In this document: positions 1 to 16,859 of the stretch, piece after piece
Position numbering within the stretch: the first letter of the stretch is position 1
How the letters are laid out: each line of letters starts with the position of its first letter
DNA from: Luteibacter sp. OK325
GTDB taxonomy: Bacteria; Pseudomonadota; Gammaproteobacteria; Xanthomonadales; Rhodanobacteraceae
Length of the DNA: 64,000 nucleotides
NCBI RefSeq assembly: GCF_003050935.1
Contig: NZ_QAOX01000001.1
Span: 62,001-126,000, forward strand
Direction of reading: 5' to 3'
Notes under the pieces: model-generated
The model's input: only the letters and a program-made list of their open reading frames with translations
What the model was told of the DNA's origin: nothing
Databases searched by the model: none
Made by a program: the position numbers and the translations under genes

Positions 1-1282
1 CCGCGGTCCGGGTGTAAACCACCTTGCCGTCTTCGATCACGCCGACGGCGATACCAGGAATGTGGTAGCGCGCAACGGCTTCGTCGACCAGCTTGTCCAG
101 GGAACCGGCCGAGGCCGCTTCGTCGGCGGCCCAGACTCGCAGCAGGTTGCCACTCCACAGCTTCGCGGTGTCTACGTCGGAGAAGCCCCGGCGCTTCAGA
201 CCTGCGGTGACATTGCGCGTCTCCGAGGCATCCATCCACCCCGTCACTTCGCCGCCACCATCGAAATCCGAAGCGATGCCGACATGATCGACGCCTGCCA
301 CCTTCACCATGTGCTGGATATGGTCGAGGAAGTCGTCCAGCGTCGCCAGGGGGTGCTCGCGCTGGATCGCCTTCATGCCTTCGACATAAGCAGGCAGGTA
401 GTCGTGTTTTTCGCTGTCGTAACTCTTGTCGCCGGCCCCATGGGCCACCTTGTCCTGCAGCGTCTTCTCCGCGGCCTCGCGTGCGGGATCTTTCTTCAGG
501 AACTCCTTGTACGCAACAGCCTGGATGACACCGCCCTTCGCCGCGATGGCCACCAGCAAGTCGTCGGGAAGGTTACGCGGGTGGTCCGTAATCGCACGCG
601 CGGACGAATGAGAGGCGATGATGGGCGCCTTTGAAAGCGCGAGCACATCGCGGACGCAGGCGTCGGAGGCATGCGAAACGTCGACCATCATGCCCAGCGC
701 ATTGGCCCGCTGGACGACCTGGCGGCCGAAGTCGGTGAGACCGAGGTTGCTGTCGGGCTTGTCGCCGAGCTCCTCCTTCGGCAACGAGCTACCGCAGAGA
801 TCATTGTTGCCCACATGCGCCAGGCCGACATAACGCGCCCCACGTGCGTAAGCCACATCGAGGCGATGCAGCTCGTGGCCGAGCGAGTAGCTATTCTCGA
901 TGCCGATCATGGCCGAAAGCCGTCCGGCCACCTTGTTCGCACGCACATCGGCCGGCGTGCGCGCCAACCGAATCTGGTCCGGGTAGCGCTTCAGCATGAG
1001 ATCGATGGCGTCGTACTTGCGTGCCGCCTGTGATACAGCTCTGGCGTAGCCCGCTGGCGTCAACGGGCCCTGCTCCACGTAGATCACGAAGAACGCGGCA
1101 TCAAGGCCGCCCCGGCGCATCTTCGGCAGGTCCACTTTCAGCGGCCCGTCCTTCCCGGCATCGAACCTGGGATCGTGCATGTACGACAGAGGAATATCGA
1201 CGTGCGTGTCGAGGGTCAGCGGGTGGTCCTGAGCCTGCGTGGCGGCGCAGAAGCCCAGGCTAAGTAGAACGAGTCGCTTCAT
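1..1282 (-). CDS. Membrane (renal-type) dipeptidase fused to a serine beta-lactamase-type domain; partial at left edge
   Basis: Partial gene read on the minus strand; about 427 codons are visible. It starts at an ATG (1282) behind a strong AAGGGAGG ribosome site. A short signal peptide (residues 1-18) is followed by a metallo-dipeptidase domain (about 20-390). The zinc-ligand motifs of the renal dipeptidase family are all there: H27-x-D29, a Glu in IGIEN, the two His in VSHAS and SHSSAR, and Asp in ASDFDG. From about residue 395 the same frame continues into LDKLVDEAV, IPGIAVGV and DGKVVYTR, the typical start of a class C beta-lactamase/serine hydrolase domain, and then leaves the window. The family cleaves dipeptides, including ones with a C-terminal D-residue. 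The protein is probably periplasmic. It is the last visible gene of a transglutaminase-receptor-dipeptidase operon. The dipeptidase call is firm; the serine hydrolase half rests on about 33 residues. Confidence 0.88.
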   Translation of the reverse strand, partial: MKRLVLLSLGFCAATQAQDHPLTLDTHVDIPLSYMHDPRFDAGKDGPLKVDLPKMRRGGLDAAFFVIYVEQGPLTPAGYARAVSQAARKYDAIDLMLKRYPDQIRLARTPADVRANKVAGRLSAMIGIENSYSLGHELHRLDVAYARGARYVGLAHVGNNDLCGSSLPKEELGDKPDSNLGLTDFGRQVVQRANALGMMVDVSHASDACVRDVLALSKAPIIASHSSARAITDHPRNLPDDLLVAIAAKGGVIQAVAYKEFLKKDPAREAAEKTLQDKVAHGAGDKSYDSEKHDYLPAYVEGMKAIQREHPLATLDDFLDHIQHMVKVAGVDHVGIASDFDGGGEVTGWMDASETRNVTAGLKRRGFSDVDTAKLWSGNLLRVWAADEAASAGSLDKLVDEAVARYHIPGIAVGVIEDGKVVYTRTA

Positions 1283-1294
1283 CGTTGCCTCCCT

Positions 1295-1324
1295 TAAAAA
1301 AAGGCACCCCGGTCCTGGGGTGCC
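1295..1324 (-). terminator. Rho-independent terminator after the first TonB receptor gene
   Basis: An 8-bp perfect stem (GGCACCCC at 1303-1310 pairing with 1317-1324) is followed on the minus strand by seven T (1296-1302). It lies 13 bp past the receptor stop codon. The T-run directly abuts the ribosome site of the dipeptidase gene, so that gene depends on read-through or on a promoter inside the receptor gene. Confidence 0.8.
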
Positions 1325-1336
1325 GGCAAGTGGACC

Positions 1337-4327
1337 TTAGAAGTCCAGGGAGACAGTAAGTTGACCGAAACGCGGGGACTGGAAGCGCTGAGGCTGCAGG
1401 TAGGTCGGGTTGAGCCCGCCGACCGATGTCTGAAGATCCTGGTCGACACCCAGCGTGCGTTGCTGGTTGAGCACGTTGTACACAGCGAGCTTCACGCGCA
1501 GGTTGTTCTTCTCGTCCAACGGCAACAGGTAGGTGATGCTGGCGTTGAGATTGAACGTCCACGGCGTGCGGTCCGCGCCGCGGGGCGAACGCTGGTACAC
1601 GCGATTCTCGGACACGGGATCGGCACAGTTCTCCACGCAGATGAAGTAGCTGTGGTAAACCGTGGCGTCATAGGGATTACCCACGCCATACCCAGTGATC
1701 GGGCTACCGGAAAGCGCCGTCACGTCTGCACCCACCTGCCACTGCCTGGTGATCGCATAGGTGCCGCGGACCTTGAACTGATGGCGATGGTCGTTGGGCA
1801 GGTAGCCCCCGTTGAGGTTCACCCAGGGGTCGTCGAAGTTCTCGGTACGGCCGGTGTCGTCGAAGTTCGTGTCGGAGTTGACCGGTCCTTCCGCGTTGCC
1901 GCGGTTCCAGGACAGCACGTACGAGGCATTCAACATCCACTTCTCGTCCCAGGCGCGATCGATCTGGAACTCCAGCGAGCCGAAGGTGCGCTTAGGCTTC
2001 TTCCAGCCGCGCTGGCCGAGGTAGTTGCCATCGGCGTCGTACATCGCCCAGCCCTGCTTCGAGGTATCGATATTGATGTAGCCGTCGGGCGTGCCGTCAC
2101 AGTTGGTATCCCCATAGACCGTGAGTTTCTTGCCGGGGTTGCCCATGACGTAGCCGATGTAGCCATCACCGCCGCACTGCGGGGTGGCGCTGATCTCCAT
2201 GTCGTCGATGGCATTGTGCAGCTTACGGTAGGTTCCACTCACGCCCCACGACCATTTGTCGTCGAGCGCCTGCTGGAAGCCGAGGATGGCCTCGTCCTGG
2301 TAGACCGAGTTCATCTTCTTGTCGACTTCGGCGCGCAGGTCACCCACGGTGCCATCACCCTGCGAGTCGTCCACCGCCCCGATCTGCGGCCCGAGGATCG
2401 GCATGGCGTAGGGCGAACCGTTGCGATCGAGGATCTGATAACCGTCGAAGGCGTAGTACGTACGCTCGTCAAGCAGGCCGCCGGCCTGCTTGATGTTGAT
2501 GACATTCGCCACGGGCAGGTAGTAACGCCCGAGGTTGCCGAAGATCTTCGTGGTGCCGTCGCTCTTGAGGTCCCAGGAGAAGCCCAGGCGTGGAGCGATC
2601 ATGTTGTCCATCTTGATATAGCTGGCGCCCTCGCCCGTCTTGTTGTCGAAGGCGTCGCGACGCAGGCCTGCGTTGAGCAGGAAGTCCGGCGTGATGTTCC
2701 AGTTGTCCTCGATGTAATAGGCATTGTTCGTGGTTTCGAACGTGCCGTCGATCTCATATCTGCGTGCACGCACGTAGGCGTCATAACCCGGAGGCACGAC
2801 GCCGCCGTTTTCGATGGTCGCGCCGGGCGTGGTCGAGTAAATGTTGTAGTAGTACGAACCCGGTCCCGGATAGCGCCGCGAGTAATCGGAGGTGTCGACT
2901 TCATGGTCGTAACCGAAGCGCAGCACGTGGTCGCCCAGTGTCCACTCGAAGTCGGCACGGCCCTGCTTGCGCGTATCGTTGCGCTTCTCCACCGCCGTGC
3001 TCGTGCTGCAGCCGAGCGGGACGCCCGGACCGGGTACGGCCGAGACCTTCGCGACCGGGTTGCAGTCGATGTCCGACTGCGCACGGGTGAAGTCCTCGCG
3101 TTGATTGCGGCCGTACATCAGCTTCATCGAGAGGTCGTCGACGATGTAGCTGGTAAACGTGCCGTTCCAGTTGAGGCCACCGGTGTTGCTGTAGATCTCG
3201 TCGTTCTTCTTGCTCGTGGTGTCCGTGTCGTAGTCGTAGTTGTAGACCGAGCCGAGGTTCTTGTCCTTGTCCGAGAAGGCCATCAACTCGAGCAGGTTCT
3301 TGTCGTTGATATGCCAGTCGACCTTGGCGCCCCAGAAGCCGGAATCGGTGTCGTTCTGGGTGAGCACGGTCCCGAGGTTGTCGGTGTTCTGCGGGGTGTA
3401 ACCACGCGCCTCGTACATGGCGAAGAAGAACAGCTTGTCCTTCACGATGGGTCCGGACGCGTACACGTTCATCTTGGTACGCGAGTAGTGATCCTCGGAC
3501 GAGGTGATGTAGCGCTCGCCATCCCAGTAGCGGTTCTTCGTGGTGGCTTGCCAGTCGCTGGCTTCGAAGGTCATCTCCGCGCCGGTCTTGAACTCATTGG
3601 TACCCGAACGGGTCACCGCGTTCACCACGCCGCCGGTGGTGCGGCCGAACTCGACGGAGTAGCCACCGGTCTTGACCTGGAATTCCTGGTAGAACGCGAA
3701 CGGCGCTTCGGAGAAGCCGTTGCGGTTGTAGAAGTCGGTGACGTTGAGTCCGTTCACATAAAACGAGTTCTCGGCCACGGACGAACCGCCGAAGGAGATG
3801 CCGCCGAACCCGGCATTGCCCTTATTCACACCCGGCGCCAGCAGCGCCACGGACTGCACGTTCTGATCAACCGGCAGGCGGCGGATTTCCTCGCGGCTTA
3901 CATTGGTCGAGATTTCGGTCGAGCTGACATCGACTGCCGAGACGACCACTGGCGCACTGACCTGCACACCCTCCAGTTCCGTGGTCGCGGCATCCCGATC
4001 GACCAGGTTCACCGTGGTGGAATTACCCAGGCTTACGTCCACCTCGGTCGCGCCCACCGGCTTGCCATCCTTGCTGCTCTCGAGCCGGTAGTGGCCGATC
4101 GGCAGGAACGGAAAGCGGTAATTGCCTGCGTTGTCCGCGGTAACCGTGCGTGTCAGGCCGGTGCCCGGGTCGCGCACGGTGACCGTAGCGCCCGCCTTGG
4201 TACGGCCGACGATCGAGCCGTCGGTGTTCGCGCCGAAGGCACTGCCGGATACGGCAAGGCCCAGGCCAATGGCCATGCACAAAGCGCCGTGACGCAGGAC
4301 GCGCCGGTTCGTCTTGATCTCCCCCAT
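1337..4327 (-). CDS. TonB-dependent receptor, Oar-like, with carboxypeptidase-regulatory-like N-terminus
   Basis: A 996-residue outer-membrane receptor. A signal peptide (about 1-33, ending SGSAFGA) precedes a carboxypeptidase-regulatory-like beta domain (about 38-112, TVTVRDPGTG and DNAGNYRFPFLPIG). A plug with the SVALLAPGV and YVNGLNVTDFYN segments follows (about 120-240), then a large beta-barrel ending in the terminal Phe of LTVSLDF. This is the Oar-type architecture common in Xanthomonadales. Such receptors use TonB energy to import large or scarce ligands. The substrate cannot be read from sequence, but the flanking dipeptidase and the divergent NlpC/P60-epimerase operon point to peptides, possibly muropeptides. 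It lies 48 bp after the transglutaminase-like gene. A second, related receptor lies at the other end of the locus. Confidence 0.9.
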   Translation of the reverse strand: MGEIKTNRRVLRHGALCMAIGLGLAVSGSAFGANTDGSIVGRTKAGATVTVRDPGTGLTRTVTADNAGNYRFPFLPIGHYRLESSKDGKPVGATEVDVSLGNSTTVNLVDRDAATTELEGVQVSAPVVVSAVDVSSTEISTNVSREEIRRLPVDQNVQSVALLAPGVNKGNAGFGGISFGGSSVAENSFYVNGLNVTDFYNRNGFSEAPFAFYQEFQVKTGGYSVEFGRTTGGVVNAVTRSGTNEFKTGAEMTFEASDWQATTKNRYWDGERYITSSEDHYSRTKMNVYASGPIVKDKLFFFAMYEARGYTPQNTDNLGTVLTQNDTDSGFWGAKVDWHINDKNLLELMAFSDKDKNLGSVYNYDYDTDTTSKKNDEIYSNTGGLNWNGTFTSYIVDDLSMKLMYGRNQREDFTRAQSDIDCNPVAKVSAVPGPGVPLGCSTSTAVEKRNDTRKQGRADFEWTLGDHVLRFGYDHEVDTSDYSRRYPGPGSYYYNIYSTTPGATIENGGVVPPGYDAYVRARRYEIDGTFETTNNAYYIEDNWNITPDFLLNAGLRRDAFDNKTGEGASYIKMDNMIAPRLGFSWDLKSDGTTKIFGNLGRYYLPVANVINIKQAGGLLDERTYYAFDGYQILDRNGSPYAMPILGPQIGAVDDSQGDGTVGDLRAEVDKKMNSVYQDEAILGFQQALDDKWSWGVSGTYRKLHNAIDDMEISATPQCGGDGYIGYVMGNPGKKLTVYGDTNCDGTPDGYINIDTSKQGWAMYDADGNYLGQRGWKKPKRTFGSLEFQIDRAWDEKWMLNASYVLSWNRGNAEGPVNSDTNFDDTGRTENFDDPWVNLNGGYLPNDHRHQFKVRGTYAITRQWQVGADVTALSGSPITGYGVGNPYDATVYHSYFICVENCADPVSENRVYQRSPRGADRTPWTFNLNASITYLLPLDEKNNLRVKLAVYNVLNQQRTLGVDQDLQTSVGGLNPTYLQPQRFQSPRFGQLTVSLDF

Positions 4328-4375
4328 CTCCCCACTCCCATAAGATGATGTTTCGGGTTGTCGTGCGTTGTCCGG

Positions 4376-5926
4376 TCAGCGCGCCGTGTCACCGCCCCCT
4401 CGCGGTGTATCGACACGGTGCCACCGGAAGTCGTAATCGAACTGATCGAAGTAAAGGTTGCCGCCCTTCCACTCGACTTCGCCGCGCTGCGAGTCGACCG
4501 TCTCCGAACGGAAGAAGGTCTTCGGCGGCGCGAACGGCTGTGAATAGTCGTCGTTGAAGGCAATGCGGTAGGCATCCAGGCCGCCGAGGTAGAACCACTC
4601 GAGCTTGTCGTCGCCCGGCTTTGCGTTCGCTCCGGCCATCAGGCGGCCGAAGGTCACGTCCATAGGAACCCAGCCATAGGGCGCAACGTAGACCTGGCCC
4701 CAGTCGTGGATGTTGTTGTACTTGCCGTCGGAAAAAATCCAGCCCGACTGCCAACGGGCTGGAATGCCGTTGAGGCGCAACAAGGTCATCAACAGCAAGG
4801 TCTGCTCACCGCAATCGCCGTGCCCGGCATGCAGGGTGTAGTCGCTGATGTTGGAAAGGGTCGAGTATTCGCGTGCGCCCGCCCAGGGGATCGTGTCTAC
4901 CGCGGCGAACAACTTCTGGGCGATGCGGTAGGGATTGGTTTCGTTGCCGACGACTTTCTTCGAGTACGCGCGCATGGCATCGGTAAAGACGATATGCGGT
5001 GCGCGTTCGGCGACGAAGGCTGCCAGCGCCGGTGTGATCGGACTGCGCGTGACCTTGGCCGGATCGATATCCACGTAGCTCGCGTAAAGCGTCAGTTCGT
5101 AGGTGATCGAGAATTCGGTGGGCTTGCCCGCCTCGGCTTTCTTTTCGAGGTAAGCGGTGCGCTGCAGCGTCGATTCGGGCGCGATGTCCACCTTGACCGG
5201 ATCACTGGCCGTCAGGCGGATGTCTTCCTGCTGGCCTGCGATCGCGCGTGGATAAGGAATCCATGCGCGGATCGTCTCGCCCGCGGGCACCGCGTCGGCG
5301 TTCACCGTGAGGATCTGGGTCACGCTCTCGCGACGTGGCAGGACACTGGTCGCGTGGTTAGCGAGTGCAGCGTCGCGCACGGCACGGTGATGGTCGTTGA
5401 GGATTTCGTTGGGGCCGTCATCGAAGGGCACCTGCTCCTTGCGGCGGGCGCACGCCTCGGCACTGATACGGAACAGGTTTCCCGGTGCACGCTTGAAGTA
5501 GAGCGTGCGCCCGTCGATGACTTGCTTCTCGAGCAGGCCGGCCGCGTCCCACTTCGCGAATTCCGCGTCGGTGAGGTCGGGGATCTGCTTGCGCAGACGC
5601 GTCTTTACCGCGTCGGCGTCGAGCGTGAAGTCGATGAGGATGCGGCGCATGCGCTCGCGTTGAAATTCGAGGGTGCTGCGCTGTCCGGTGGTGAGGCCGG
5701 GTTTCGCCAGGGCGGTTGCGATGGAGGCTTCGGCTGCCTTGAAGCGGCCTGCGTCTATCTGCTTCGACGGAGCATCGCCGACGAAGTCGGCTCCTACCGA
5801 GCCTGGTCCGGCAAACGCGCCTGGTTCGGGAATGGGGGCTGGTTCGGGAACGGGGGCTGACGCGGCCAACGGGAAGGCGGCCGCGATGGCAGCGCAAACT
5901 ATTGCGTTTCGTGTGGCCGCTTTCAC
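4376..5926 (-). CDS. Periplasmic transglutaminase-like cysteine protease family protein
   Basis: The open frame extends up to 5992, but a GTG at 5926 behind GGGGAT fits better because a typical signal peptide (AIVCAAIAAAFPLAAS) begins there. That gives 516 residues. A Pro/Glu-rich stretch follows the signal. The C-terminal part is a transglutaminase-like core with a visible Cys-His-Asp triad: C372 in GHGDCGEQ, H407 in NIHDWGQV and D423 in MDVTFG. In bacteria such domains are usually peptidases or amidases rather than cross-linkers. It is first in a leftward operon with a TonB receptor and a dipeptidase, and divergent from the DUF819-NlpC/P60-epimerase operon. A role in trimming imported peptides in the periplasm is inferred; the substrate is unknown. 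Confidence 0.8.
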   Translation of the reverse strand: MKAATRNAIVCAAIAAAFPLAASAPVPEPAPIPEPGAFAGPGSVGADFVGDAPSKQIDAGRFKAAEASIATALAKPGLTTGQRSTLEFQRERMRRILIDFTLDADAVKTRLRKQIPDLTDAEFAKWDAAGLLEKQVIDGRTLYFKRAPGNLFRISAEACARRKEQVPFDDGPNEILNDHHRAVRDAALANHATSVLPRRESVTQILTVNADAVPAGETIRAWIPYPRAIAGQQEDIRLTASDPVKVDIAPESTLQRTAYLEKKAEAGKPTEFSITYELTLYASYVDIDPAKVTRSPITPALAAFVAERAPHIVFTDAMRAYSKKVVGNETNPYRIAQKLFAAVDTIPWAGAREYSTLSNISDYTLHAGHGDCGEQTLLLMTLLRLNGIPARWQSGWIFSDGKYNNIHDWGQVYVAPYGWVPMDVTFGRLMAGANAKPGDDKLEWFYLGGLDAYRIAFNDDYSQPFAPPKTFFRSETVDSQRGEVEWKGGNLYFDQFDYDFRWHRVDTPRGGGDTAR

Positions 5927-6030
5927 CGTTCGGTATCCCCGATGCAACCGTGGTGGGTGGACGTGCGTCAGGGCTGTGTAACATGCTTGCAAAGCGCGGT
6001 CAATAATTTATGCTTCGCCCTACCTCGTTC

Positions 6031-6044
6031 GGAATACATATTCC
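6031..6044. promoter_or_regulatory. Candidate operator, perfect inverted repeat in the divergent promoter region
   Basis: GGAATA-CA-TATTCC is a perfect 6+2+6 palindrome in the 153-bp gap between the two divergent peptidoglycan-locus operons, 36 bp before the DUF819 start. It is AT-rich in a GC-rich setting. RpiR-family regulators bind short palindromes near divergent promoters and one is encoded in the operon, so it is the natural candidate. Binding is inferred. Confidence 0.45.
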
Positions 6045-6079
6045 TGACGACCGTCGTGACACCACCCGGGGAGGGACGC

Positions 6080-7228
6080 GTGATCCAGTCGGTTTGGCTT
6101 TACCTGGCCGTGATGCTGCTTGCCGCCGGCTTCTGGCCCGCGATCGAACGGCGTTTCGGCTGGAAGGTATTCGAGATCCTTCCACCCATCGTCCTCACCT
6201 ACCTCACCGTCACCGCGCTATCGGTCGCCGGCCTCTGGACGGCCTCGGTGGAGATCCACGCGGCGCAGAACATGCTGGTGGCGCGGCTCGTGCCGGCCCT
6301 GCTCTTCCTGTTGATGATCAACTGCGACCTGCGCGCGATCCTTGCCCTGGGCCCACGGGTGCTCGGCGTCTTCGTCTGCACCTCGATCAGCCTGTTCATC
6401 GCCTTCCTGCTCGCCTTCCTGATCTTCCGTCACTGGATGCCGGGCAACGGCTGGATGCCGTTGGCCTCCCTGTCAGGAAGCTGGATGGGCGGCACGGCGA
6501 ACATGATCGCGGTGAAGCAGGCGATCGGGATGTCCGATACGGCATTGGCGACGACCCTGCTTACCGACGCACTTTGCTACTCGATGTGGGTGGTGGTGCT
6601 GTTCGCGGTGGCCCGGCTCGCGCCCGCGTTCAACCGCTGGACGCGTGCGGTATCGAGTGCGGACCTTACCGTCGCCGAGGCCGCGCCGCGCGCTCCCGCC
6701 ACGCCGGACAGCGTGCTGCTCTGGCTCGGCCTCGCCGTGCTGGTGGCCGCACTGTCCAGCGTATTCGGGGCGACACTGCCTGTCGGGAGCATGGTCTCCG
6801 CCACCACCTGGACCATCCTGCTGGCGACCGGCGCCGGCCTGGTCGTGGCGCATACACCGCTGGCACGATTGCCCGGTGCACAGACGGTATCGAGCGCGAT
6901 GTTGATTTTCGTCGTGGCCGTGCTTGCCTCGCAGAGCAGCTTCGCCGGCATCGCCGCGGCACCTGTGTACCTGCTCGCCGGCGTCACCGTGATCACCCTG
7001 CATGCCGTGCTGCTCTGCCTCGCCGCACGCATCTTTCACTTCGACCTGTATCTGTGTGGCATTTGCTCACTCGCCCATATCGGCGGCGTGGCGGCCACGC
7101 CGGTGCTAGCCGCTACGTATTCGCGCTCGCTGGTGCCGGTGGGCATCCTGCTCGCGCTGCTCGGATATATCCTCGGGACTGGTTTCGGTCTCGTGGTCTC
7201 CACGGTGCTTTCGGCGCTGGCTTCCTGA
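6080..7228 (+). CDS. DUF819 family integral membrane protein, candidate dipeptide/muropeptide permease
   Basis: The open frame begins at 5942, but GTG 6080 directly follows GGGGAGGG and starts a hydrophobic segment, giving 382 residues. The protein is almost entirely membrane-embedded, with about ten hydrophobic helices such as WLYLAVMLLAAGFW and VFVCTSISLFIAFLLAFLIF. Gly/Ser-rich loops (LSGSWMGGTANMIAVKQAIG and CSLAHIGGVAATPVLAATY) match the repeated signature of DUF819 proteins. The biochemical function of the family is, to my knowledge, unproven. It is the first gene of an operon with an NlpC/P60 endopeptidase and a dipeptide epimerase, 14 bp upstream of the former. No other inner-membrane peptide importer is seen, so it is the best candidate to bring L-Ala-D-Glu to the cytoplasmic epimerase. 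That role is inferred. Confidence 0.8.
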   Translation: MIQSVWLYLAVMLLAAGFWPAIERRFGWKVFEILPPIVLTYLTVTALSVAGLWTASVEIHAAQNMLVARLVPALLFLLMINCDLRAILALGPRVLGVFVCTSISLFIAFLLAFLIFRHWMPGNGWMPLASLSGSWMGGTANMIAVKQAIGMSDTALATTLLTDALCYSMWVVVLFAVARLAPAFNRWTRAVSSADLTVAEAAPRAPATPDSVLLWLGLAVLVAALSSVFGATLPVGSMVSATTWTILLATGAGLVVAHTPLARLPGAQTVSSAMLIFVVAVLASQSSFAGIAAAPVYLLAGVTVITLHAVLLCLAARIFHFDLYLCGICSLAHIGGVAATPVLAATYSRSLVPVGILLALLGYILGTGFGLVVSTVLSALAS

Positions 7229-7242
7229 CCAAGGATCTCGCT

Positions 7243-8634: not shown

Positions 8635-8652
8635 TCCGCCCAGCGAGACTCC

Positions 8653-9744
8653 ATGAAGATCACCGATATCCGCTTCGGCATGCTGCGCGTGCCATTGAAG
8701 ACTGCCTTCAAGACGGCCTTGCGCACGGTCGACAAGGTCGAAGACATCGTCGTGATGGTGCATACCGACGAGGGCAACGTGGGCTACGGCGAAGCGCCGG
8801 CCACCGCGGTCATCACCGGCGACACCCACGGCTCGATCGTCGACGCCATCCGCCATTACATAGCGCCACGCCTGATCGGCGAAGACATCGCCGATCTCAA
8901 CCGGATCACCAAGCTGATCCAGGGCACCATGGAGAAGAACACCAGCGCCAAGGCGGCGGTGGAGATTGCGGTCTACGACCTCTGGGGCCAGCTCTATGGC
9001 GCGCCGCTGTACAAGCTCCTTGGTGGGGGCGACCCGGTTATCACCACCGACATCACCATCAGCGTCGACTACATCGACAAGATGGTCGCCGACTCCGTCG
9101 CCGCGGTGGAACGCGGCTTCGAGTCGCTGAAGATCAAGGTCGGCAAGGATATCGGCGTGGACATCGAGCGGGTCCGCGCGATCTACGCCGCGGTGGAAGG
9201 CCGTGCCCTGCTCCGCCTCGATGCAAACCAGGGCTGGACGGCAAAGGAAGCCGTCTACGCACTGCATGCGCTGGAAGATGCGGGCGTACGCCTCGAACTG
9301 GTCGAGCAACCGGTGAAGGCACGCGATCTGGAAGGCATGCGCTATGTCACCGAGCGCGTGCACACGCCGATCATGGCCGACGAGAGTGTCTTCGGGCCGG
9401 CGGAAGTCATGGACCTTATCCGCATGCGTGCCGCCGATATCATCAACATCAAGCTGATGAAGACGGGCGGTATCTCCCATGCCATCCGCATCGCGGACAT
9501 CGCCGGCCTCTATGGCATCGAATGCATGATCGGCTGCATGCTGGAGAGCAGCATCAGCGTCGCCGCTGCCGTGCATGTGGCGGTGGCAAAATCCGATGTC
9601 ATCACCAAGGTCGATCTCGATGGGCCTTCCCTGTGTGCGTACAACCCCGTCGATGGCGGCGTGAACTTCAACGAATCGGAGATCTCGGTGAGCGATGCGC
9701 CGGGCCTTGGTATCCGCGAGATCCGCGGCCTCGAGCCGCTCTGA
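8653..9744 (+). CDS. L-Ala-D/L-Glu (dipeptide) epimerase, enolase superfamily
   Basis: A 363-residue cytoplasmic enzyme of the muconate-lactonising subgroup of the enolase superfamily. The catalytic set is complete: K160-I-K162 on the second barrel strand, metal ligands D190 (LLRLD), E218 (LVEQP) and D243 (MADES), and the opposing base K267 (INIKLMK). A D321-L-D323 pair (VDLDGP) sits near the C-terminus; in L-Ala-D/L-Glu epimerases a DxD pair there binds the alpha-ammonium group of the dipeptide, which sets them apart from other superfamily members. The enzyme converts L-Ala-D-Glu from murein into L-Ala-L-Glu, which ordinary peptidases can split. Its place after an NlpC/P60 endopeptidase gene supports this specificity. 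Confidence 0.92.
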   Translation: MKITDIRFGMLRVPLKTAFKTALRTVDKVEDIVVMVHTDEGNVGYGEAPATAVITGDTHGSIVDAIRHYIAPRLIGEDIADLNRITKLIQGTMEKNTSAKAAVEIAVYDLWGQLYGAPLYKLLGGGDPVITTDITISVDYIDKMVADSVAAVERGFESLKIKVGKDIGVDIERVRAIYAAVEGRALLRLDANQGWTAKEAVYALHALEDAGVRLELVEQPVKARDLEGMRYVTERVHTPIMADESVFGPAEVMDLIRMRAADIINIKLMKTGGISHAIRIADIAGLYGIECMIGCMLESSISVAAAVHVAVAKSDVITKVDLDGPSLCAYNPVDGGVNFNESEISVSDAPGLGIREIRGLEPL

Positions 9745-9755
9745 GGGACGCCGCC

Positions 9756-10601
9756 ATGTCGCCACTGGTGAAGATCCGCTCCGAACGCGACCGCATGTCG
9801 GCGGTGGAGCGGCGTATCGCCGACTTCATCCTCGAGAACGCCCAGCTGCTGCGCGACTACTCGTCGCAGCAACTGGCCAATGCACTGGGTATCAGCCAGT
9901 CCAGCGTGGTCAAGTTCACCCAGAAGCTGGGATTCCGCGGCTACCCGGACCTCAAGTACTCCGTGGGTGAAGCGATCGGCCGCACGGAGGAAGGTGGCAG
10001 CGAAGCCATGCCGGTCACCGAACGCCCGGGTGGCGACCCCCTCGGCGCGGCGCTGTGGCAGCGCAAGGCGCGTGCCGAAGAAGCGACTCGCCTCATCAAC
10101 AGCGCCGAAACCTTGCATGGCCTGGTCGATGCCGTCGAGTCGGCGGGGAAGGTCTTCCTCATCGGCCTGGGCGAGGACGACCTGCACGCGCGCGGGTTCG
10201 CCGTGCGCCTGTCGTTGTTGGGCATCGTGGCTATCCGGCACTTCGACGTAAGCCGCATGGCGGCGCAGGTCGCGATGTCCGCGCCGGGTGACCTGCTGAT
10301 CGTGTTCTCCGAGCACGGCAAGCATCCCGCGCTGGTCAAGATCGCCCGTTATTTCCGCGAGCAGCGTGGACGTGTGGTTACCGTGACCCGCCATACCTCC
10401 AATCCGCTGCGCGCGCTGGCCGATATCGCCCTGGCGGTGGCCGCGCACGACGATGCGTCCTACGTCCAGTCGTTGATCTACCAGTCCACCGTGCAGCAGT
10501 TACTCGACACCGTCTTCGTCCACCTGTGCGAGGGCGACGAGGCGCGTCATGCGCGCCTGGTGCAGAACCTCGACCGCATCCAGCAGATGCTCGAACCCTG
10601 A
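9756..10601 (+). CDS. RpiR/MurR-family transcriptional regulator (HTH-SIS) with altered ligand motifs
   Basis: A 281-residue regulator, ATG 11 bp after the epimerase stop. Residues 1-75 form the RpiR helix-turn-helix (SAVERRIADFILEN, SQQLANALGISQSSVVKFTQKLGF). Residues about 110-250 form a SIS domain. In sugar-phosphate-binding SIS domains the loops read roughly GxGxS and SxSGxTxE. Here they read GLGEDD and SEHGKHPA, so the phosphate-binding Ser/Thr residues and the Glu are replaced. The domain fold is clear, but the effector is probably not a sugar phosphate; a muropeptide or dipeptide is a reasonable guess. Its position inside the operon suggests local control, perhaps through the palindrome at 6031-6044. 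Confidence 0.85.
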   Translation: MSPLVKIRSERDRMSAVERRIADFILENAQLLRDYSSQQLANALGISQSSVVKFTQKLGFRGYPDLKYSVGEAIGRTEEGGSEAMPVTERPGGDPLGAALWQRKARAEEATRLINSAETLHGLVDAVESAGKVFLIGLGEDDLHARGFAVRLSLLGIVAIRHFDVSRMAAQVAMSAPGDLLIVFSEHGKHPALVKIARYFREQRGRVVTVTRHTSNPLRALADIALAVAAHDDASYVQSLIYQSTVQQLLDTVFVHLCEGDEARHARLVQNLDRIQQMLEP

Positions 10602-10613
10602 CCGGAACGCCAC

Positions 10614-11375
10614 ATGACGTCACCCCGAACACTCAGTCGGCTTCTCGGCCTGGCCGCCTTCTTTCTCACCGCGTCTACGGGCGCCTTCGAGACGCCGTCC
10701 GCCTGGTCGGTGTCCCGCCAGATGATCGTTGTGACCACCGACGGCTGGGACGTCGATCATGGAAGGCTGCGCGCGTATGTCCGCGAAGGCTCCCAATGGA
10801 AACAGGAAGGTCCCGCCACCGATGTGACCATCGGCAAGCACGGTAGCGCCTGGGGCGTGGGCCTGAATCCACCCGGGCACGATGGCCCGGTGAAGAAAGA
10901 AGGCGACGGCCGCAGTCCGGCGGGCGTGTTCCGTGTCGGCGAGGCGTTCGGCTATGCGGAGAAGAACCCCACCGCACTGCCGTACCGCGGCCTGACTGCG
11001 TCCGACTATTGCGTGGACGTGGACAGCTCGGCTTATTACAACCAGGTCGTCGACGCGAAGAAAGTCGGTGAGAAGGCTGTCGCCGGCGCCACCGAACCAA
11101 TGCGCCGCGACCTGCACTTCGATGGCGACCATGCCTATCGCATTGGCTTTGTCATCGAGCACAATCCCGACGGTCGAAGGGGTGCAGGCAGCTGCATCTT
11201 CGCCCACCTGTGGAAATCACCTACCTCGCCGACCGCCGGCTGCACGGCCATGGCCGACGACGCGATGGAACGGCTGCTTGGCTGGCTCGATCCGAAGAAG
11301 AAGCCGGTCTTCGTGCTGCTGCCGAAGTCCGAATACGCTCGCCTGCGCGAAGCCTGGAACCTGCCAGCCCCATGA
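10614..11375 (+). CDS. L,D-transpeptidase-fold (YkuD, COG3786 type) periplasmic protein
   Basis: A 253-residue protein with an N-terminal signal peptide (about 1-24). The YkuD catalytic region is visible: H198 in CIFAHLW and C210 in PTAGCTAM, with conserved upstream segments (KKEGDGRSPAGVF). The cysteine and histidine of the family are kept. This subtype has a GCxx motif instead of the ShGCxR of the main cell-wall L,D-transpeptidases, and members are usually annotated only as YkuD-domain proteins. Being inside a peptide-scavenging operon, it may act as an L,D-carboxypeptidase or endopeptidase on tetrapeptides rather than as a cross-linker. That is inference. Its stop overlaps the start of the next gene (ATGA). 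Confidence 0.82.
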   Translation: MTSPRTLSRLLGLAAFFLTASTGAFETPSAWSVSRQMIVVTTDGWDVDHGRLRAYVREGSQWKQEGPATDVTIGKHGSAWGVGLNPPGHDGPVKKEGDGRSPAGVFRVGEAFGYAEKNPTALPYRGLTASDYCVDVDSSAYYNQVVDAKKVGEKAVAGATEPMRRDLHFDGDHAYRIGFVIEHNPDGRRGAGSCIFAHLWKSPTSPTAGCTAMADDAMERLLGWLDPKKKPVFVLLPKSEYARLREAWNLPAP

Positions 11376-12607
11376 CTGCCACCCAACGGATCCTCCTTGG
11401 CCTCGCGCTTGGCGCCATGACTGGCATCGCCCTGGCGTCATGGGCACCCGACGTAGCGGAACGCATCGCCGATGCCGTGCAACCGGTGGGCAAGCTATGG
11501 CTGAGCGCGTTGCAGATGACGGTGGTGCCGCTGGTGCTTTCGCTGGTGGTCGTCGGTGCCAACACCGCGACCGACGCCGCCGCGTCGGGCCGCATCGCCC
11601 GTCGTGCCATCGTGGTGTTCCTGCTCCTGCTTGCGTTGGGCGCCGCCGTCGCTGCCTTGACCGCGCCTGCACTGTTCACGCTGTTCCCGCGTAGCGATTC
11701 GCTCACCACAGCGTTGAGCGCCACGGGCAGCCATCTTCCCGCGACCGCGCCAATCGGCTGGTCCGACTGGCTGGCCGGCATCGTTCCCACCAACGTGGTC
11801 ATGGCAGCGGCGCAGAGCGCGATGCTACCGTTGGTGGTGTTCGCCATGTTCCTCGGCTTCGCCCTCACCCGGATCGCCCCTGAGCGCCGCGCGCTGGCGG
11901 TGGAGTTCTTCCGGGCGATTGCCGACGCGATGATCGTCATCGTTCGTTGGGTACTACTGCTCGCGCCCTTGGGCGTGTTCGCACTGATCCTTTCCGTCTG
12001 CGCGCGAGCAGGCCTGCACATGCTGGGTGCGCTGGGCGTCTATGTGCTGGTGGAATGCATGGTGTATCTCATCGTCACCGCGCTGATGCTGGTCGTCGCC
12101 CGCGCCTGGGGTCACGAGCCCTTCGCCCGCTTCGCAGCCGCGATCGCACCGGCACAAGTCGTCGCCGCGAGCACGCAGTCCTCGCTCGCTTCGCTGCCGG
12201 CCATGATCGAAAGCGCGGACCGTCGCCTCGGCTATCCCACCGCCGTGACCTCGCTCGTGTTACCGATGGCGGTGTCACTGTTCCGGCTCACCAGCCCGGT
12301 GCAATACGTCGTCTCAGCGAGTTTTATCGCGTGGGCGCTGGGCATCGAACTGAGCGTGGCACAGTTGGCTGCGGGTGCGGCACTCGCGGTGGTGATAAGC
12401 CTGGGCTCGGTCGGCCTGCCCGGGCAGGTCACGTTCATCGCAACCAACGTCCCTGTCGCGCAGGCCATGGGCCTGCCTATCGGTCCGCTGGGCATCATGC
12501 TCGCGGTGGACACCCTTCCGGACACGCTGGCGACACTCGGAAACGTTACCGCCGATCTCGCGGCGACCAGCATCGTCGCCGCGCAATCCCGTAAGGACGA
12601 GGCATGA
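11372..12607 (+). CDS. Divergent dicarboxylate/amino acid:cation symporter (DAACS family)
   Basis: A 411-residue membrane protein starting in an ATGA overlap with the preceding gene. Family hallmarks include QMTVVPLVLSLVVVGAN in the first half and the hairpin-1 serine stretch (STQSSLASLP). The last core helix, DTLATLGNVTAD, aligns with DMGRTMVNVTGD of GltPh: the equivalents of D394, T398, N401 and D405 are kept but R397, which holds the acidic side chain, is Ala. The NMDGT sodium motif after LPxGA is FRLTS. So this is unlikely to be an ordinary Na-glutamate/aspartate carrier. A neutral amino acid (Ala or D-Ala) or a small peptide is more likely. The family is sure, the substrate unknown. Confidence 0.87.
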   Translation: MTATQRILLGLALGAMTGIALASWAPDVAERIADAVQPVGKLWLSALQMTVVPLVLSLVVVGANTATDAAASGRIARRAIVVFLLLLALGAAVAALTAPALFTLFPRSDSLTTALSATGSHLPATAPIGWSDWLAGIVPTNVVMAAAQSAMLPLVVFAMFLGFALTRIAPERRALAVEFFRAIADAMIVIVRWVLLLAPLGVFALILSVCARAGLHMLGALGVYVLVECMVYLIVTALMLVVARAWGHEPFARFAAAIAPAQVVAASTQSSLASLPAMIESADRRLGYPTAVTSLVLPMAVSLFRLTSPVQYVVSASFIAWALGIELSVAQLAAGAALAVVISLGSVGLPGQVTFIATNVPVAQAMGLPIGPLGIMLAVDTLPDTLATLGNVTADLAATSIVAAQSRKDEA

Positions 12608-13728
12608 ACGAGACACCCGTCGATGTGATCGTGATCGGCGCCGGTATCGCCGGTGCATCGGTCGCCTGGTTCCTTGCGCCGCACGCGCGCGTCGTCGTGC
12701 TCGAGCGCGAATCGTTCGCCAGCTTCCACACCACGGGACGGTCGGCCGCACATTTCAGCGAAAGCTACGGCTCACCGCAGGTACGGGCGTTGAGTCGCGC
12801 CACGCGTCCCTTTCTGGCATGTCCGCCTGGCGGATTCGCCGAGCACCCGATTCTTCAGCGTCGTGGTGCCCTCGTGATCGGCAACGCGGCACAGGCTGAT
12901 CGCGTACGCGAGGCATTTGAAGCCGTACGCCGCTTCACTCCTGCGCTGACCTTGCTCCATAGCGAACAGATCGCGGCACTCGTGCCGGTGCTTCGTTCCG
13001 ACGCCGCGAGCATTGCGTTCTTTGAACCCGATTCGGCCGATATCGACGTCAATGAATTGCACCAGGGCTTCCTGCGCGGCGCGAAAGCGCAAGGGGTCGC
13101 CTTGCATGTCGACACCCGGGTCCACGCTATCCGTCGCGAAGGACGCGAATGGATCGTCAACGAACAATGGCGCGCGCCTGTGGTCGTGAACGCCGCCGGG
13201 GCATGGGCTGACACCGTGGCCGAACTCGCTGGCGTGGATACCATCGGTCTCGAGCCGCGCCGCCGTTCCGCCTTCACCTTCGCCGCTCCCGCTGGTATCG
13301 ATGCAGCCGGATGGCCCTTCGTCGTCGACGTCGATGAAACCTTCTACTTCAAGCCAGACGCAGGCTTGCTTCTCGGCTCGGCCGCAAACGCCGATCCGAC
13401 GCATCCGCATGACGTACAGCCCGAGGAGTACGACATCGCCCTGGGCATCCACCGTATCGAGGAAGCCACGACGATGACGATCCGCCGTCCCGCCCGTACC
13501 TGGGCCGGCCTGCGCAGTTTCGTCGCGGATGGCGATCTCGTCGGTGGCTTTGCGCCGGATGCACCGGGATTCTTCTGGCTCGCCGCACAGGGCGGCTACG
13601 GCATCCAGACCAGCGCAGCCATGGCGGAGGCCTGCGCATCGATGATCCTCGGCAAGCCGATGCCGGAGCACCTTGCGGAAGCCGGCATCACAGCGGCGTT
13701 GCTAAGCCCCGCAAGACTCCGCCGGTAG
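12604..13728 (+). CDS. FAD-dependent D-amino acid dehydrogenase-like oxidoreductase (DAO/DauA type)
   Basis: A 374-residue protein of the DAO superfamily, start in an ATGA overlap with the symporter gene. The FAD-binding GxGxxG is at residues 12-17 (VIGAGIAGAS). HTTGRSAAHFSESYG resembles the flavin-proximal segment of Pseudomonas D-arginine dehydrogenase (DauA). ARTWAGLRSF and the Gly-rich GGYGIQTS close the FAD site as in that group. Such enzymes oxidise D-amino acids to keto acids and pass electrons to the respiratory chain. In this operon it would fit catabolism of D-Ala or D-Glu from murein. No signal peptide is seen, so it is cytoplasmic or peripheral. The D-amino acid specificity is inferred from motif likeness and context. 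Confidence 0.82.
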   Translation: MNETPVDVIVIGAGIAGASVAWFLAPHARVVVLERESFASFHTTGRSAAHFSESYGSPQVRALSRATRPFLACPPGGFAEHPILQRRGALVIGNAAQADRVREAFEAVRRFTPALTLLHSEQIAALVPVLRSDAASIAFFEPDSADIDVNELHQGFLRGAKAQGVALHVDTRVHAIRREGREWIVNEQWRAPVVVNAAGAWADTVAELAGVDTIGLEPRRRSAFTFAAPAGIDAAGWPFVVDVDETFYFKPDAGLLLGSAANADPTHPHDVQPEEYDIALGIHRIEEATTMTIRRPARTWAGLRSFVADGDLVGGFAPDAPGFFWLAAQGGYGIQTSAAMAEACASMILGKPMPEHLAEAGITAALLSPARLRR

Positions 13729-13746
13729 CAGGATCACCCCCGCCCT

Positions 13747-13828
13747 TGTAGGAGCCGATTCATCGGCGATCCCGCGACAGCGGGCCAGGGCACGGCGAGC
13801 ACCTATCGCCGCTGAAGCGGCTCCCACA
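13747..13828. repeat. Pair of inverted REP-like extragenic palindromes
   Basis: TGTAGGAGCCGATTCATCGG begins a unit at 13747-13770; its imperfect reverse complement (ATCGCCGCTGAAGCGGCTCC...) is at 13805-13828. Between them is a small CCCGC-GACA-GCGGG hairpin. Single related units lie at 17792-17829 and 51783-51805. They lie between the convergent oxidase and receptor genes. The paired layout resembles REP doublets mobilised by RAYT transposases in other gammaproteobacteria. Confidence 0.75.
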
Positions 13829-13850
13829 CCGAAGCGGCCCCACACGATGG

Positions 13851-16800
13851 TCAGAAATCGTACGAAACGCTGAGCCGCCCGTACCGCGGCGCCTGCCGCT
13901 GTGTAATCACCCCATACGCCGGCTCCGGCACCCCCGGACCCGCTTCCGAATAGGGATACTTCTGCAGCGCCCGCTGTTCGTTGAGCAGGTTGAACACGTT
14001 CGCACTAAAGGCCAGTTTCCCTTCACTGAAGGAAGGACGCCAGGTCACGCCAAGATCGATCTGGCGGATCCATGGCAGCCGGCCCTGCTCGCCCGGAGGC
14101 GAGGGCAAGCCGTCGCAGAAGTGGTAATCGCCGCCATAGCCGGCGGGATCCGAGTGGTCGGCACCGTAGTAGGCAAGGCAATGCCGTGGCGTGCCGGAAA
14201 CGACGCTTACATTGGCCGAAGCGAGCCACTCCGGTGTGATCTGCCAATAGCCGAACACCTTGAACTGGTGCGTGTGATCGTTGCTCTGCGGCCCGTTGGT
14301 GTGCTCCATGATCGGACCGTTGTCCCAGTCCTCGCTCGTCGACGCCGCGGTCTGGTTGAGGTCCGAGCGAAGCTGCCCTTCCGTATTGCCGTAGCTGCGC
14401 GAGAATACGTAGTTCGCCCGCGCGAACCATGTACCGTCGAAGGGGTGCTCCAGCAGCAACTCCAGGCTGTAGTACTTGCGCTTGAGCCTGTCGAAGCCGA
14501 GCTCCTTGTTGGTCACTGGCACTTCCACATGGTTTCCCGCCGTATCCAGCAGGGTGAACGTGTTGGCCTGTCCGGGATTGAACAGGTAGCAGCTGTTGGT
14601 CTGGTTCGTGTCGATATCCAGGCCGAGCGACTGCCCCTTGGCGACGATGCGGTCGATGTCGCAATAATCGTCGATGGCGTTGCGCAGGTTGCGGTAGGTC
14701 AGTTTGGCGCCGTAGAGCCAGTCAGAACCGAAGGTCTTGGTGAAACCGAGGATGTACTCGTCCTGGTTCTCCGCCTTCATGCCCTTGGCGGCAACCGTTT
14801 TGGGATCCGGCAGTTCGCCGAAGTTGTTGTTCGCCGACACCGGCACGCCCGGCGCGATCGCTGTCAGCCCGCTCGGCTGGCCGTCCGCAGCAATGCCCGT
14901 ATAGGTGAAATACTGCGTAGTGCTCAACGCGCCGCCAGCAGCGTTCAGGGCCGGGTTCAACGGCAAGCCGAGGTAGTAGCGGCCCGCATTGCCGTAGACC
15001 TTGAAGGTCGCGTCGCCGAACACGTCCCAGCTGAAGCCAAGGCGCGGGGCCCACTGCGGCGAGGTCTGCTTGATGTAGATGTCGCTGTCGGCGTTGTAGT
15101 TGGTGAACTGGTCGTTGCGCAGACCCAGTGTGACCAGCCACCGATCCGTGACCTGCCAGGCATCCTCGATGTACTGGGCTCGCTGGCTCGAGCGCACCGT
15201 CGCAAGGCTGGACGACACCCCGCGCGCTACGTAGTAACCCTGTTCGCCACCGGGGTAGTTACCCGGGGCGTCGACACCGAGACCGGTCGAAATCGGAAGC
15301 GTCGGGTCACCCTGGTTATAGGTCCAGGTGTAGCCCGGCCCCGAGCTCTCCGAACCCTGGTCACGCGCCCTCGCCTGCTGGTTGTCGATGCCGGCCGTGA
15401 TCGTGTGATCGCCGATCACGTAATGAAGGTCGAAGCGCGTGTTCGTGGTCTCGTTGCCACGGTTCGGATCGGTAAGCGAGGCGATGGTCTGCCCGTTCTG
15501 CCGGGCGGTGCCACCCGTATACGCGGGATTCTGAAAGTCGAGGCCGGCGATGTACACGGCGTCCGGGTTGTAACCGGAAGGCGAGACGTAGCTCACCGTG
15601 CGCATCTTGCCGTACTGGGCACTGATGGTCAGGCTGTCGGTGATATAGCCGGTGTACTTCGCGGTATAGACGTCGCCGCCGTACTTTTCGTCGTTCGCGC
15701 CGGTGATACGCTCGCCGCGCGCCTGGTTCGCGTAGTCGTAATCGTAAACTGTGCCCGAGCGATGCGTCTTGTCCGAAGCGCCGGTCACCTCGACGATATT
15801 GCTCTCGTCGATATTCCAGTCCAGCTTGGCGTACCAGCGAGGCAACTGGTAGCGATAGGCGCGGTCCGGCGACTGCGGCAGCGTCACGTTGCTCACCGCG
15901 TCACCTGTCTGTCGCTCCACTTCGGCGGCCGCGAAGATGAAAAGCTTGTCCTTGATGAGCGGACCGCCGGCATAGATGCTCGCCGTCGTGGAGGTCTCGG
16001 TGTTTGCACGATTTGGCTGGTAGAGCGAGCCTGCCTTCGGCTGCGGCGGAAGTCCATTCGTGTAGTAGCTATTCTGGCCGTCCGCACGGAGCCCGTTCGG
16101 CTCCCAGATGAGCTGCGCACCCGCGTGCCACTCATTGGTACCGCGCTTGCCCACGACGTTGATCACACCACCGTCGGAGCGCCCGTACTGGGCGCTGTAG
16201 CCGCCGGTATAGACCTCCTGCTGGTCGATCGCGCCATAGGGCAGCGAGATGCCGCCGAAGCCACGGAGTGGGTCAGTCGTATTGAACCCGTTGACGTAGT
16301 ACGCGTTCTCGCTGGCAGCGGATCCACCGAAGGTAACGAGCGAGTTTCCGGTCGCACTCAGGTAGCTGCCACTGTTGTTGACGGCACCCGGCGCCAGCAA
16401 GGCGATCGCCTCGGAGCTGCGTCCCAATGGCAACTTCGCCAGCTGATCGGAGGTGACGACCGTACGCGAGTCAACCGTGGAGACATCGATCTTCGCCAGC
16501 GCGTTCGCCGAGACCGTCACACCGCCAAGGTCCTGTGCGGAGGGCGATGCAAACGACACCTCGACCCCGGAGCCGACGCGCAAGGCGACGTTTTCCCGAC
16601 TCAGTACCGCGGCGCCCGCATGAATGACCGACACCGTGTACGTGCCCAGAGGAAGCTGCGCTGCGGAGTAGCGGCCCCTGGCATCGACAGGCACATCACG
16701 GGAAAGCCCCGTATCGCCGACGACCCGTACCACATCCCCCTCAGACGCCTGAACCTGACCGTAGATCGAACCGGTAGTGGACTGCGCCAACGCGCCCCCT

Positions 16801-16859
16801 GAAAGTGCAGCGAACAAAGCGGTAGCCAACAGCGACCGCTGCAACGACGAGTTACGCAT
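13851..16859 (-). CDS. TonB-dependent receptor, Oar-like, second copy
   Basis: The frame is open to 16889, but the ATG at 16859 follows AAGGG at good spacing and starts a clean signal peptide (SLLATALFAALSGGALAQ), giving 1002 residues. A short carboxypeptidase-regulatory-like domain (about 25-95) precedes the plug (AIALLAPGAV, YYVNGFNTTDPLRGFGG, GGVINVVGKRGTNEW) and a barrel ending in LSVSYDF. It shares this architecture and several plug motifs with the receptor at 1337-4327 but has a different N-terminal domain and barrel. It converges on the end of the muropeptide-type operon. A related ligand is plausible but not shown by sequence. Confidence 0.9.
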   Translation of the reverse strand: MRNSSLQRSLLATALFAALSGGALAQSTTGSIYGQVQASEGDVVRVVGDTGLSRDVPVDARGRYSAAQLPLGTYTVSVIHAGAAVLSRENVALRVGSGVEVSFASPSAQDLGGVTVSANALAKIDVSTVDSRTVVTSDQLAKLPLGRSSEAIALLAPGAVNNSGSYLSATGNSLVTFGGSAASENAYYVNGFNTTDPLRGFGGISLPYGAIDQQEVYTGGYSAQYGRSDGGVINVVGKRGTNEWHAGAQLIWEPNGLRADGQNSYYTNGLPPQPKAGSLYQPNRANTETSTTASIYAGGPLIKDKLFIFAAAEVERQTGDAVSNVTLPQSPDRAYRYQLPRWYAKLDWNIDESNIVEVTGASDKTHRSGTVYDYDYANQARGERITGANDEKYGGDVYTAKYTGYITDSLTISAQYGKMRTVSYVSPSGYNPDAVYIAGLDFQNPAYTGGTARQNGQTIASLTDPNRGNETTNTRFDLHYVIGDHTITAGIDNQQARARDQGSESSGPGYTWTYNQGDPTLPISTGLGVDAPGNYPGGEQGYYVARGVSSSLATVRSSQRAQYIEDAWQVTDRWLVTLGLRNDQFTNYNADSDIYIKQTSPQWAPRLGFSWDVFGDATFKVYGNAGRYYLGLPLNPALNAAGGALSTTQYFTYTGIAADGQPSGLTAIAPGVPVSANNNFGELPDPKTVAAKGMKAENQDEYILGFTKTFGSDWLYGAKLTYRNLRNAIDDYCDIDRIVAKGQSLGLDIDTNQTNSCYLFNPGQANTFTLLDTAGNHVEVPVTNKELGFDRLKRKYYSLELLLEHPFDGTWFARANYVFSRSYGNTEGQLRSDLNQTAASTSEDWDNGPIMEHTNGPQSNDHTHQFKVFGYWQITPEWLASANVSVVSGTPRHCLAYYGADHSDPAGYGGDYHFCDGLPSPPGEQGRLPWIRQIDLGVTWRPSFSEGKLAFSANVFNLLNEQRALQKYPYSEAGPGVPEPAYGVITQRQAPRYGRLSVSYDF

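Follow-up and report, generated by a model that had tools for sequence, protein, structure and literature searches.

What might a dipeptide epimerase gene be doing among genes for TonB-dependent receptors, peptidases and transporters? The question is raised by the left part of a 64,000-nucleotide stretch of Luteibacter sp. OK325 DNA (hereafter the window, meaning this whole stretch; G000:C1:62001-126000 within a 4.94 Mb genome whose closest named relatives are Luteibacter). An earlier note had described eleven genes here as a muropeptide scavenging locus, and all eleven were found in their places with the domains ascribed to them. We consider it likely (probability about 0.72) that the locus serves RpiR-controlled catabolism of peptidoglycan stem peptides. 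The connection with peptidoglycan is well supported by gene context and by the epimerase residues; we further infer the substrates, the direction of transport, the cargo of the TonB-dependent receptor and the compartments of the individual steps.

Epimerase and its conserved gene set

The L-Ala-D/L-Glu epimerase of the YkfB/YcjG type (8653..9744, plus strand) has enolase-superfamily fold domains (PF13378, E 1.4e-54; PF02746, E 4.7e-18), and its nearest solved structure is BsAEE (1JPM, E 4.6e-99). The alignment with 1JPM contains the lysine pair, which we take to be catalytic, the presumed metal ligands, K268, the D321/D323 pair and R24, presumably the Glu-binding residue. R24, K160, K162, the metal ligands, K267, D321 and D323 are invariant in 99 of 99 epimerase rows, so the earlier choice of D321/D323 as diagnostic was correct. 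In this and other row counts (24, 88, 97, 98, 99) some genomes are counted twice, owing to overlap between GTDB regions and named loci (e.g., L037/L064, L039/L062, L156/L137, L157/L101); L037-L056 are excluded from the family alignments.

The strongest evidence that this epimerase clade works in peptidoglycan catabolism comes from a sister family of the same order, f8, whose 72% identical epimerase lies in a different and fuller cluster. The cell-wall scavenging cluster L148:23-19601 (genome G018) encodes an RpiR regulator, a PF00144 protein with DUF3471, MpaA (250.9 bits against a curated cut-off of 157), a glutamate-racemase-like protein below cut-off, an amino-acid permease and alanine racemase. 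It further includes two Gate proteins, an S66 LD-carboxypeptidase, the epimerase and an SH3_6-NlpC/P60 enzyme, as well as an Amidase_2 protein with a lipoprotein-like start, a TonB receptor, an SSF symporter and NamZ. Across seven f8 loci, some cut by contig ends, the epimerase, NlpC/P60 and Amidase_2 occur in all seven, the TonB receptor, alanine racemase and S66 in six each, NamZ in five and MpaA in two. S66 is present where no YkuD match was found, and the NlpC/P60 enzyme of L148 is of the Asn type discussed below, without a signal-like start. RpiR, PF00144, a TonB receptor, NlpC/P60 and the epimerase are common to the f8 loci and those of the window type.

The conserved-neighbourhood search that had been proposed as a check found the window gene set to recur across Lysobacterales, in named loci and in further genomes of the order. 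Named loci were counted among the best 80 of 432 relatives retrieved with the epimerase as query, which is the only reason why the epimerase itself is in 80 of 80. The recurring ordered core has two arms. One carries TonB-dependent receptor 1 (1337..4327, minus strand; carboxypeptidase-regulatory-like domain, plug and barrel; PF25183, PF13620, PF07715) and a probably exported transglutaminase-like cysteine hydrolase (4376..5926, minus strand; Transglut_core). The other carries an endopeptidase with SH3b (SH3_6) and NlpC/P60 domains, a signal-like N-terminus and a presumed gamma-D-Glu-diamino acid specificity (7243..8634, plus strand; PF12913, PF00877), the epimerase, a MurR/RpiR-type regulator (9756..10601, plus strand; PF01418, PF01380) and an exported enzyme of the YkuD fold (10614..11375, plus strand). 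RpiR was found in 80 of the 80 named loci, NlpC/P60 in 79, the transglutaminase-like gene in 78, YkuD in 76 and TonB receptor 1 in 71. The locus is present in Luteibacter, Dyella, Rhodanobacter, Frateuria, Fulvimonas, Lysobacter, Luteimonas, Pseudoxanthomonas, Dokdonella, Tahibacter and Steroidobacter.

The surroundings are another matter. The flanking sucD gene is in none of the 80 named loci, 73 of which have at least 4 kb of right flank, and the NAD synthase gene is in two, the left flank being seldom long enough to reach it. Since the order of the core is kept while flanking genes change, the gene set can be regarded as a genuine unit. This much of the scavenging proposal is supported, by conservation and by the f8 context together. 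Within the order the epimerase was detected in 46 of 150 genomes (E 1e-40 or better); at class level it was detected in 5 of 274 (E 1e-60, own genome counted), two of these being only 35% identical. Reduced loci also exist: L159 retains NlpC/P60, epimerase and YkuD, and L150 has the epimerase without other query genes. Three Rhodanobacter loci (L076, L085, L101) have an Amidase_2 homologue left of the cluster and no matches to TonB receptor 1 or DUF819.

Other genes accompany the core less regularly. A DUF819 membrane transporter of the CPA/AT superfamily, a candidate dipeptide importer (6080..7228, plus strand; PF05684, E 3.4e-71), is in 63 of the 80 named loci, and an SDF-family (GltP-like) symporter (11372..12607, plus strand; PF00375, E 5.6e-74) is in 73. 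Fifteen loci that lack DUF819 have a gap of 128-356 nt in place of about 1.3 kb. The oxidase announced as DadA/DauA-like proved to be a DauA-like D-amino acid dehydrogenase (DAO oxidase; 12604..13728, plus strand; top PDB match 3NYC, E 2.6e-130) and occurs in 40. The M19 dipeptidase (1..1282, minus strand) is part of an 880-aa fusion with a serine beta-lactamase-fold domain in a single ORF (G000:C1:60640-63282; PF01244, E 3e-98; PF00144, E 4.5e-64). M19 is in at least 50 named loci, PF00144 in at least 36 and a second PF00144 gene in at least 10; these are lower bounds, as the 10-kb flank misses this side of many loci. TonB-dependent receptor 2 (13851..16859, minus strand; PF25183, PF07715) is peripheral and convergent, and is the best match in only six named loci, four of them in the window orientation. 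Thus both receptors counted by the earlier note are present, but only receptor 1 is conserved with the set.

Enzymes and the intergenic region

The nearest PDB sequence matches of the NlpC/P60 enzyme are 3M1U (DvLysin, E 1.3e-24), 6SQX (E 4e-11) and 3H41 (E 4.2e-5). C338, H398 and Y200 are present in all 97 rows. Y200 is equivalent to Tyr118 of the YkfC SH3b domain by the 3H41 alignment, with numbering inferred from the construct. In YkfC, Asp256 is described as binding the free L-Ala amine and as essential for recognising stems with free L-Ala (PMC2954226, section 3.10). The corresponding residue is Asn (N356) in 92 of the 97 rows, the window included, and Asp in five (L095, L104 from Rhodanobacter panaciterrae, L113, L152, L158), a natural contrast for studying specificity. 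The label "YkfC-like" is therefore not supported, given this replacement and the best PDB sequence matches 3M1U and 6SQX, although the SH3b Tyr is kept. Like the four-domain lysins DvLysin and PnpA, the enzyme combines SH3b1 and NlpC/P60 domains, and its closest sequence match is of this kind; the c-clip domain PF12912 was not reported by the Pfam scan, and the 3M1U and 6SQX alignments begin at residues 117 and 111. By a crude hydrophobicity rule for export signals, 81 of 96 NlpC/P60 rows and 84 of 90 YkuD rows have an export-like N-terminus.

The YkuD-fold protein has the catalytic His and Cys of its fold, and the highest structural ranks of its model include Csd6, Pgp2 and Bd1075. We take these three to be cell-shape LD-carboxypeptidases; the PDB titles name Pgp2 a cell-shape protein. 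The window enzyme may thus perhaps be an LD-carboxypeptidase, as far as the model suggests. A PDB sequence search with this protein gave no YkuD-fold match, and one with the transglutaminase-like protein gave no match at all. We also considered an LD1,3-transpeptidase (LdtGo, 8QZG); 8QZG is absent among the 50 structural matches listed, which does not amount to an exclusion. LdtGo is reported in Alpha- and Betaproteobacteria and Desulfovibrionaceae in the available parts of PMC10727944 and PMC10864386.

The solved structures nearest to the M19 domain are 3B40, 2RAG and 3ID7. Among 24 loci showing both M19 and PF00144, the two form one ORF in 10 (in L038 a frame of just 433 codons) and two ORFs in 14; further Luteibacter loci share the fusion, as does Pinirhizobacter (L086). 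Beyond the window the left operon continues from the fusion to the second PF00144 gene and then NAD synthase. The plus-strand genes are spaced by 11-18 nt or overlap by 4 nt; for all genes of the locus the start codons are of our choice. The best NCBIfam match of the RpiR gene is NF008590 (154.1 bits, below the cut-off of 355).

Two conserved elements lie in the divergent intergenic region: palindromic element A (TCAATAATTTATGCTTCG, 6000..6017) and inverted repeat B (GGAATACATATTCC, 6031..6044), the latter a putative RpiR operator. The top site of element A outscores every shuffle in 88 of 88 regions, about half of which served to train the motif; in L138 the best-scoring site lies elsewhere. 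Both elements were called in 80 of the 88 regions, with starts 31-32 nt apart in 77. RpiR may bind A or B. Genome-wide, element A is single at up to three mismatches and element B is no commoner than its reversed control (3 vs 3), and we rejected the idea of a genome-wide regulon. A terminator-like hairpin (1303..1324, minus strand; an 8-pair stem followed by a T-run) lies between the TonB receptor 1 gene and M19 and might divide the left operon into two transcripts; the terminator scan as a whole gave 7 sites vs 9.1 in shuffles.

D-glutamate economy of the genome

The window genome encodes AmpG (446 bits) and Mpl (636 bits), both over cut-off, which makes the locus additional to classical recycling, and two Amidase_2 proteins. 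Glutamate racemase had no match in this genome at E 0.001. Instead, D-Glu is made with MurL: a MurD2-MurL pair is found at L182 (G000:C8:205465-208075), where the only MurD of the genome over cut-off adjoins MurL (774.8 bits, cut-off 700). According to the portion of PMC8788868 available, MurL acts only in the L to D direction. Without a racemase match and with a one-way MurL, D-Glu derived from the wall has no recognised racemase route back (dehydrogenases and aminotransferases were not searched), which makes the dipeptide epimerase a candidate for returning D-Glu to L-Glu. The epimerase may be this way back.

Within the order, MurL matches 145 of the 150 genomes (61 over cut-off), and MurI is over cut-off in three (G019, G119, G126; none of them an epimerase genome), with any match at E 0.001 in 47. 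Racemase matches below cut-off (E 2.6e-12 to 4e-20) were found in seven f8 epimerase genomes (G007, G018, G035, G049, G092, G122, G132) and weaker ones in three genomes of the same genus (G074, G095, G120). We considered whether the locus correlates with MurL or MurI and dropped the idea, since MurL in 145, MurI in three and the epimerase in 46 genomes do not discriminate. As MurL is near-universal, the epimerase is not, and racemase-like proteins accompany some epimerases, MurL should be seen as the setting of the locus rather than its correlate. PMC5808125, in the sections seen, handles dipeptide epimerases and MurL as separate topics, and the text of PMC8788868 does not contain "recycl", "AmpG" or "dipeptide". 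In such parts of the literature, the link through D-Glu between epimerase and MurL has apparently not been drawn before.

Readings of the locus and known systems

If the locus catabolises stem peptides, fragments would cross the outer membrane via TonB receptor 1, a coupling to TonB-dependent uptake that is plausible by association. In the periplasm, the beta-lactamase-fold peptidase would open D-Ala bonds and the YkuD enzyme would take off the D-Ala at position four. The NlpC/P60 enzyme would cut the gamma-D-Glu-DAP bond, perhaps while the stem is still linked to MurNAc. Release of L-Ala-D-Glu may then fall to the transglutaminase-like enzyme, to amidases encoded elsewhere, or to both. After import by DUF819 or the SDF symporter, the epimerase would convert this dipeptide to L-Ala-L-Glu, open to ordinary peptidases, and DauA could oxidise other D-amino acids such as D-Ala.

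A number of observations weigh against this picture. DUF819, SDF, M19 and DauA are dispensable across named loci, and 15 of 98 loci, some cut by contig ends, have neither DUF819 nor SDF matches. The ten genes beside six distant DUF819 relatives (L051-L056) include no clear peptidoglycan family (they code for ion channels, binding proteins, HerA, a TPR protein with a weak Transglut_core and others), so DUF819 as a general peptidoglycan marker is not supported by these neighbours; one of the six, L054, also has a 35% identical M19 homologue. The export rule passes 45 of 87 transglutaminase-like rows, and also 11 of 41 DauA rows. The epimerase scores below both NCBIfam equivalog cut-offs (NF041118, 251.6 of 500 bits; NF011708, 108.8 of 343), models that are probably narrow, and the PF00144 domain scores below the AmpH cut-off (84.8 of 266 bits). 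With the YkuD model, these LD-carboxypeptidase structures lead plain YkuD and LD-transpeptidase structures by just some 1 to 3 Z units, and a Foldseek search found nothing at E 0.001. No muramoyl-alanine amidase gene lies in the window locus, and one is nearby in just 4 of the 80 named loci. Lacking the Asp for free L-Ala stems, the NlpC/P60 enzyme need not make L-Ala-D-Glu itself. The sigma-70 promoter scan showed no excess (1 site vs 3.0 in shuffles).

The lack of this Asp leads to a tentative version of the same reading, which we hold possible but short of even odds: an Asn-type enzyme would cut MurNAc-linked stems to muramyl-dipeptide, and L-Ala-D-Glu would appear only later, through AmpG import and AmpD-type amidases or the transglutaminase-like enzyme. 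The predominance of N356 speaks for it, as do the residues at the Asp256 position in 3M1U (Asn), 6SQX (Ser) and 3H41 (Asp) and the AmpG and two Amidase_2 proteins of the genome. In f8 the Asn-type enzyme has an Amidase_2 lipoprotein and MpaA for partners, and DvLysin, PnpA and EcgA are reported, in the part of PMC7860986 available, to cut muropeptides. Against it stand the YkfC-associated SH3b Tyr of all 97 rows, which is Ala in 3M1U and Thr in 6SQX, and the five rows with Asp.

The exported enzymes could also trim the cell's own peptidoglycan during turnover or remodelling, with cytoplasmic genes recovering the products and TonB receptor 1 importing something else. Csd6, Pgp2 and Bd1075 among the top matches of YkuD would suit this idea, as would the AmpH-like (though below cut-off) PF00144 and the presence of AmpG and Mpl. 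We find it unlikely, as a regulator, epimerase, DauA and symporters sharing one operon point to catabolism, and the f8 locus with NamZ has a TonB receptor too. Far less probable still is a role in breaking down other dipeptides or peptides with D-residues, unrelated to peptidoglycan. Enzymes of the M19 and DauA families accept a broad range of D-residue substrates and the epimerase falls short of the equivalog cut-offs, but R24 and the DxD motif are as in BsAEE, the partners are SH3b-NlpC/P60 and YkuD proteins, and the f8 context is hard to fit.

Stem-peptide catabolism, if true, would mean that Lysobacterales (Lysobacter, Rhodanobacter, Dyella, Luteibacter) have a pathway dedicated to wall scavenging, and would point to what a group of DUF819 transporters and a transglutaminase-like hydrolase do. 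It would also offer a natural Asn/Asp contrast for comparing possible lysin-type with recycling-type NlpC/P60 enzymes, and connect dipeptide epimerases with D-Glu synthesis by MurL. The titles and abstract openings of the literature matches listed contain no description of the locus.

Among known systems, ykfABCD-dpp of Bacillus subtilis likewise joins an LD-carboxypeptidase (YkfA, presumably S66), an epimerase and an NlpC/P60 endopeptidase with peptide uptake. There, as far as the excerpted text goes, YkfC lacks a signal peptide, and an ABC dipeptide transporter is encoded next to these genes (PMC2954226). The window locus differs in the export-like N-termini of NlpC/P60 and YkuD, in a YkuD-fold putative LD-carboxypeptidase and in DUF819 and SDF transporters, with no ABC gene in the locus; an arrangement with all processing enzymes in the cytoplasm and ABC uptake is thus not what we found. 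Bacillus cereus ykfBC is closer in one respect, as an NlpC/P60 enzyme with a signal peptide adjoins an epimerase without one. Cleavage outside the cytoplasm followed by dipeptide import was proposed for it in 2010 (both points from the available portion of PMC2954226), so the move of cleavage to the periplasm suggested in the earlier note had a precedent as an idea. However, B. cereus is Gram-positive and has no TonB receptor, its genes adjoin divIC and oppA, and Asp256 is kept.

In Escherichia coli mpaA-ycjG, as published excerpts describe it, the epimerase also turns L-Ala-D-Glu into L-Ala-L-Glu, but the endopeptidase step belongs to MpaA, which the f8 sister locus has; no M14-type gene is in the window locus, the search being confined to it. 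DvLysin (3M1U), PnpA and EcgA are SH3b and NlpC/P60 enzymes cutting gamma-D-Glu-mDAP, according to the same part of PMC7860986, where a single mention of the code, together with a length of 499 aa for both, suggests that 6SQX is PnpA. DvLysin shares the Asn with the window enzyme whereas 6SQX has Ser, and neither has the YkfC Tyr that the window enzyme keeps. Overall, the parts of the locus are of known kinds, and it is their combination that appears undescribed.

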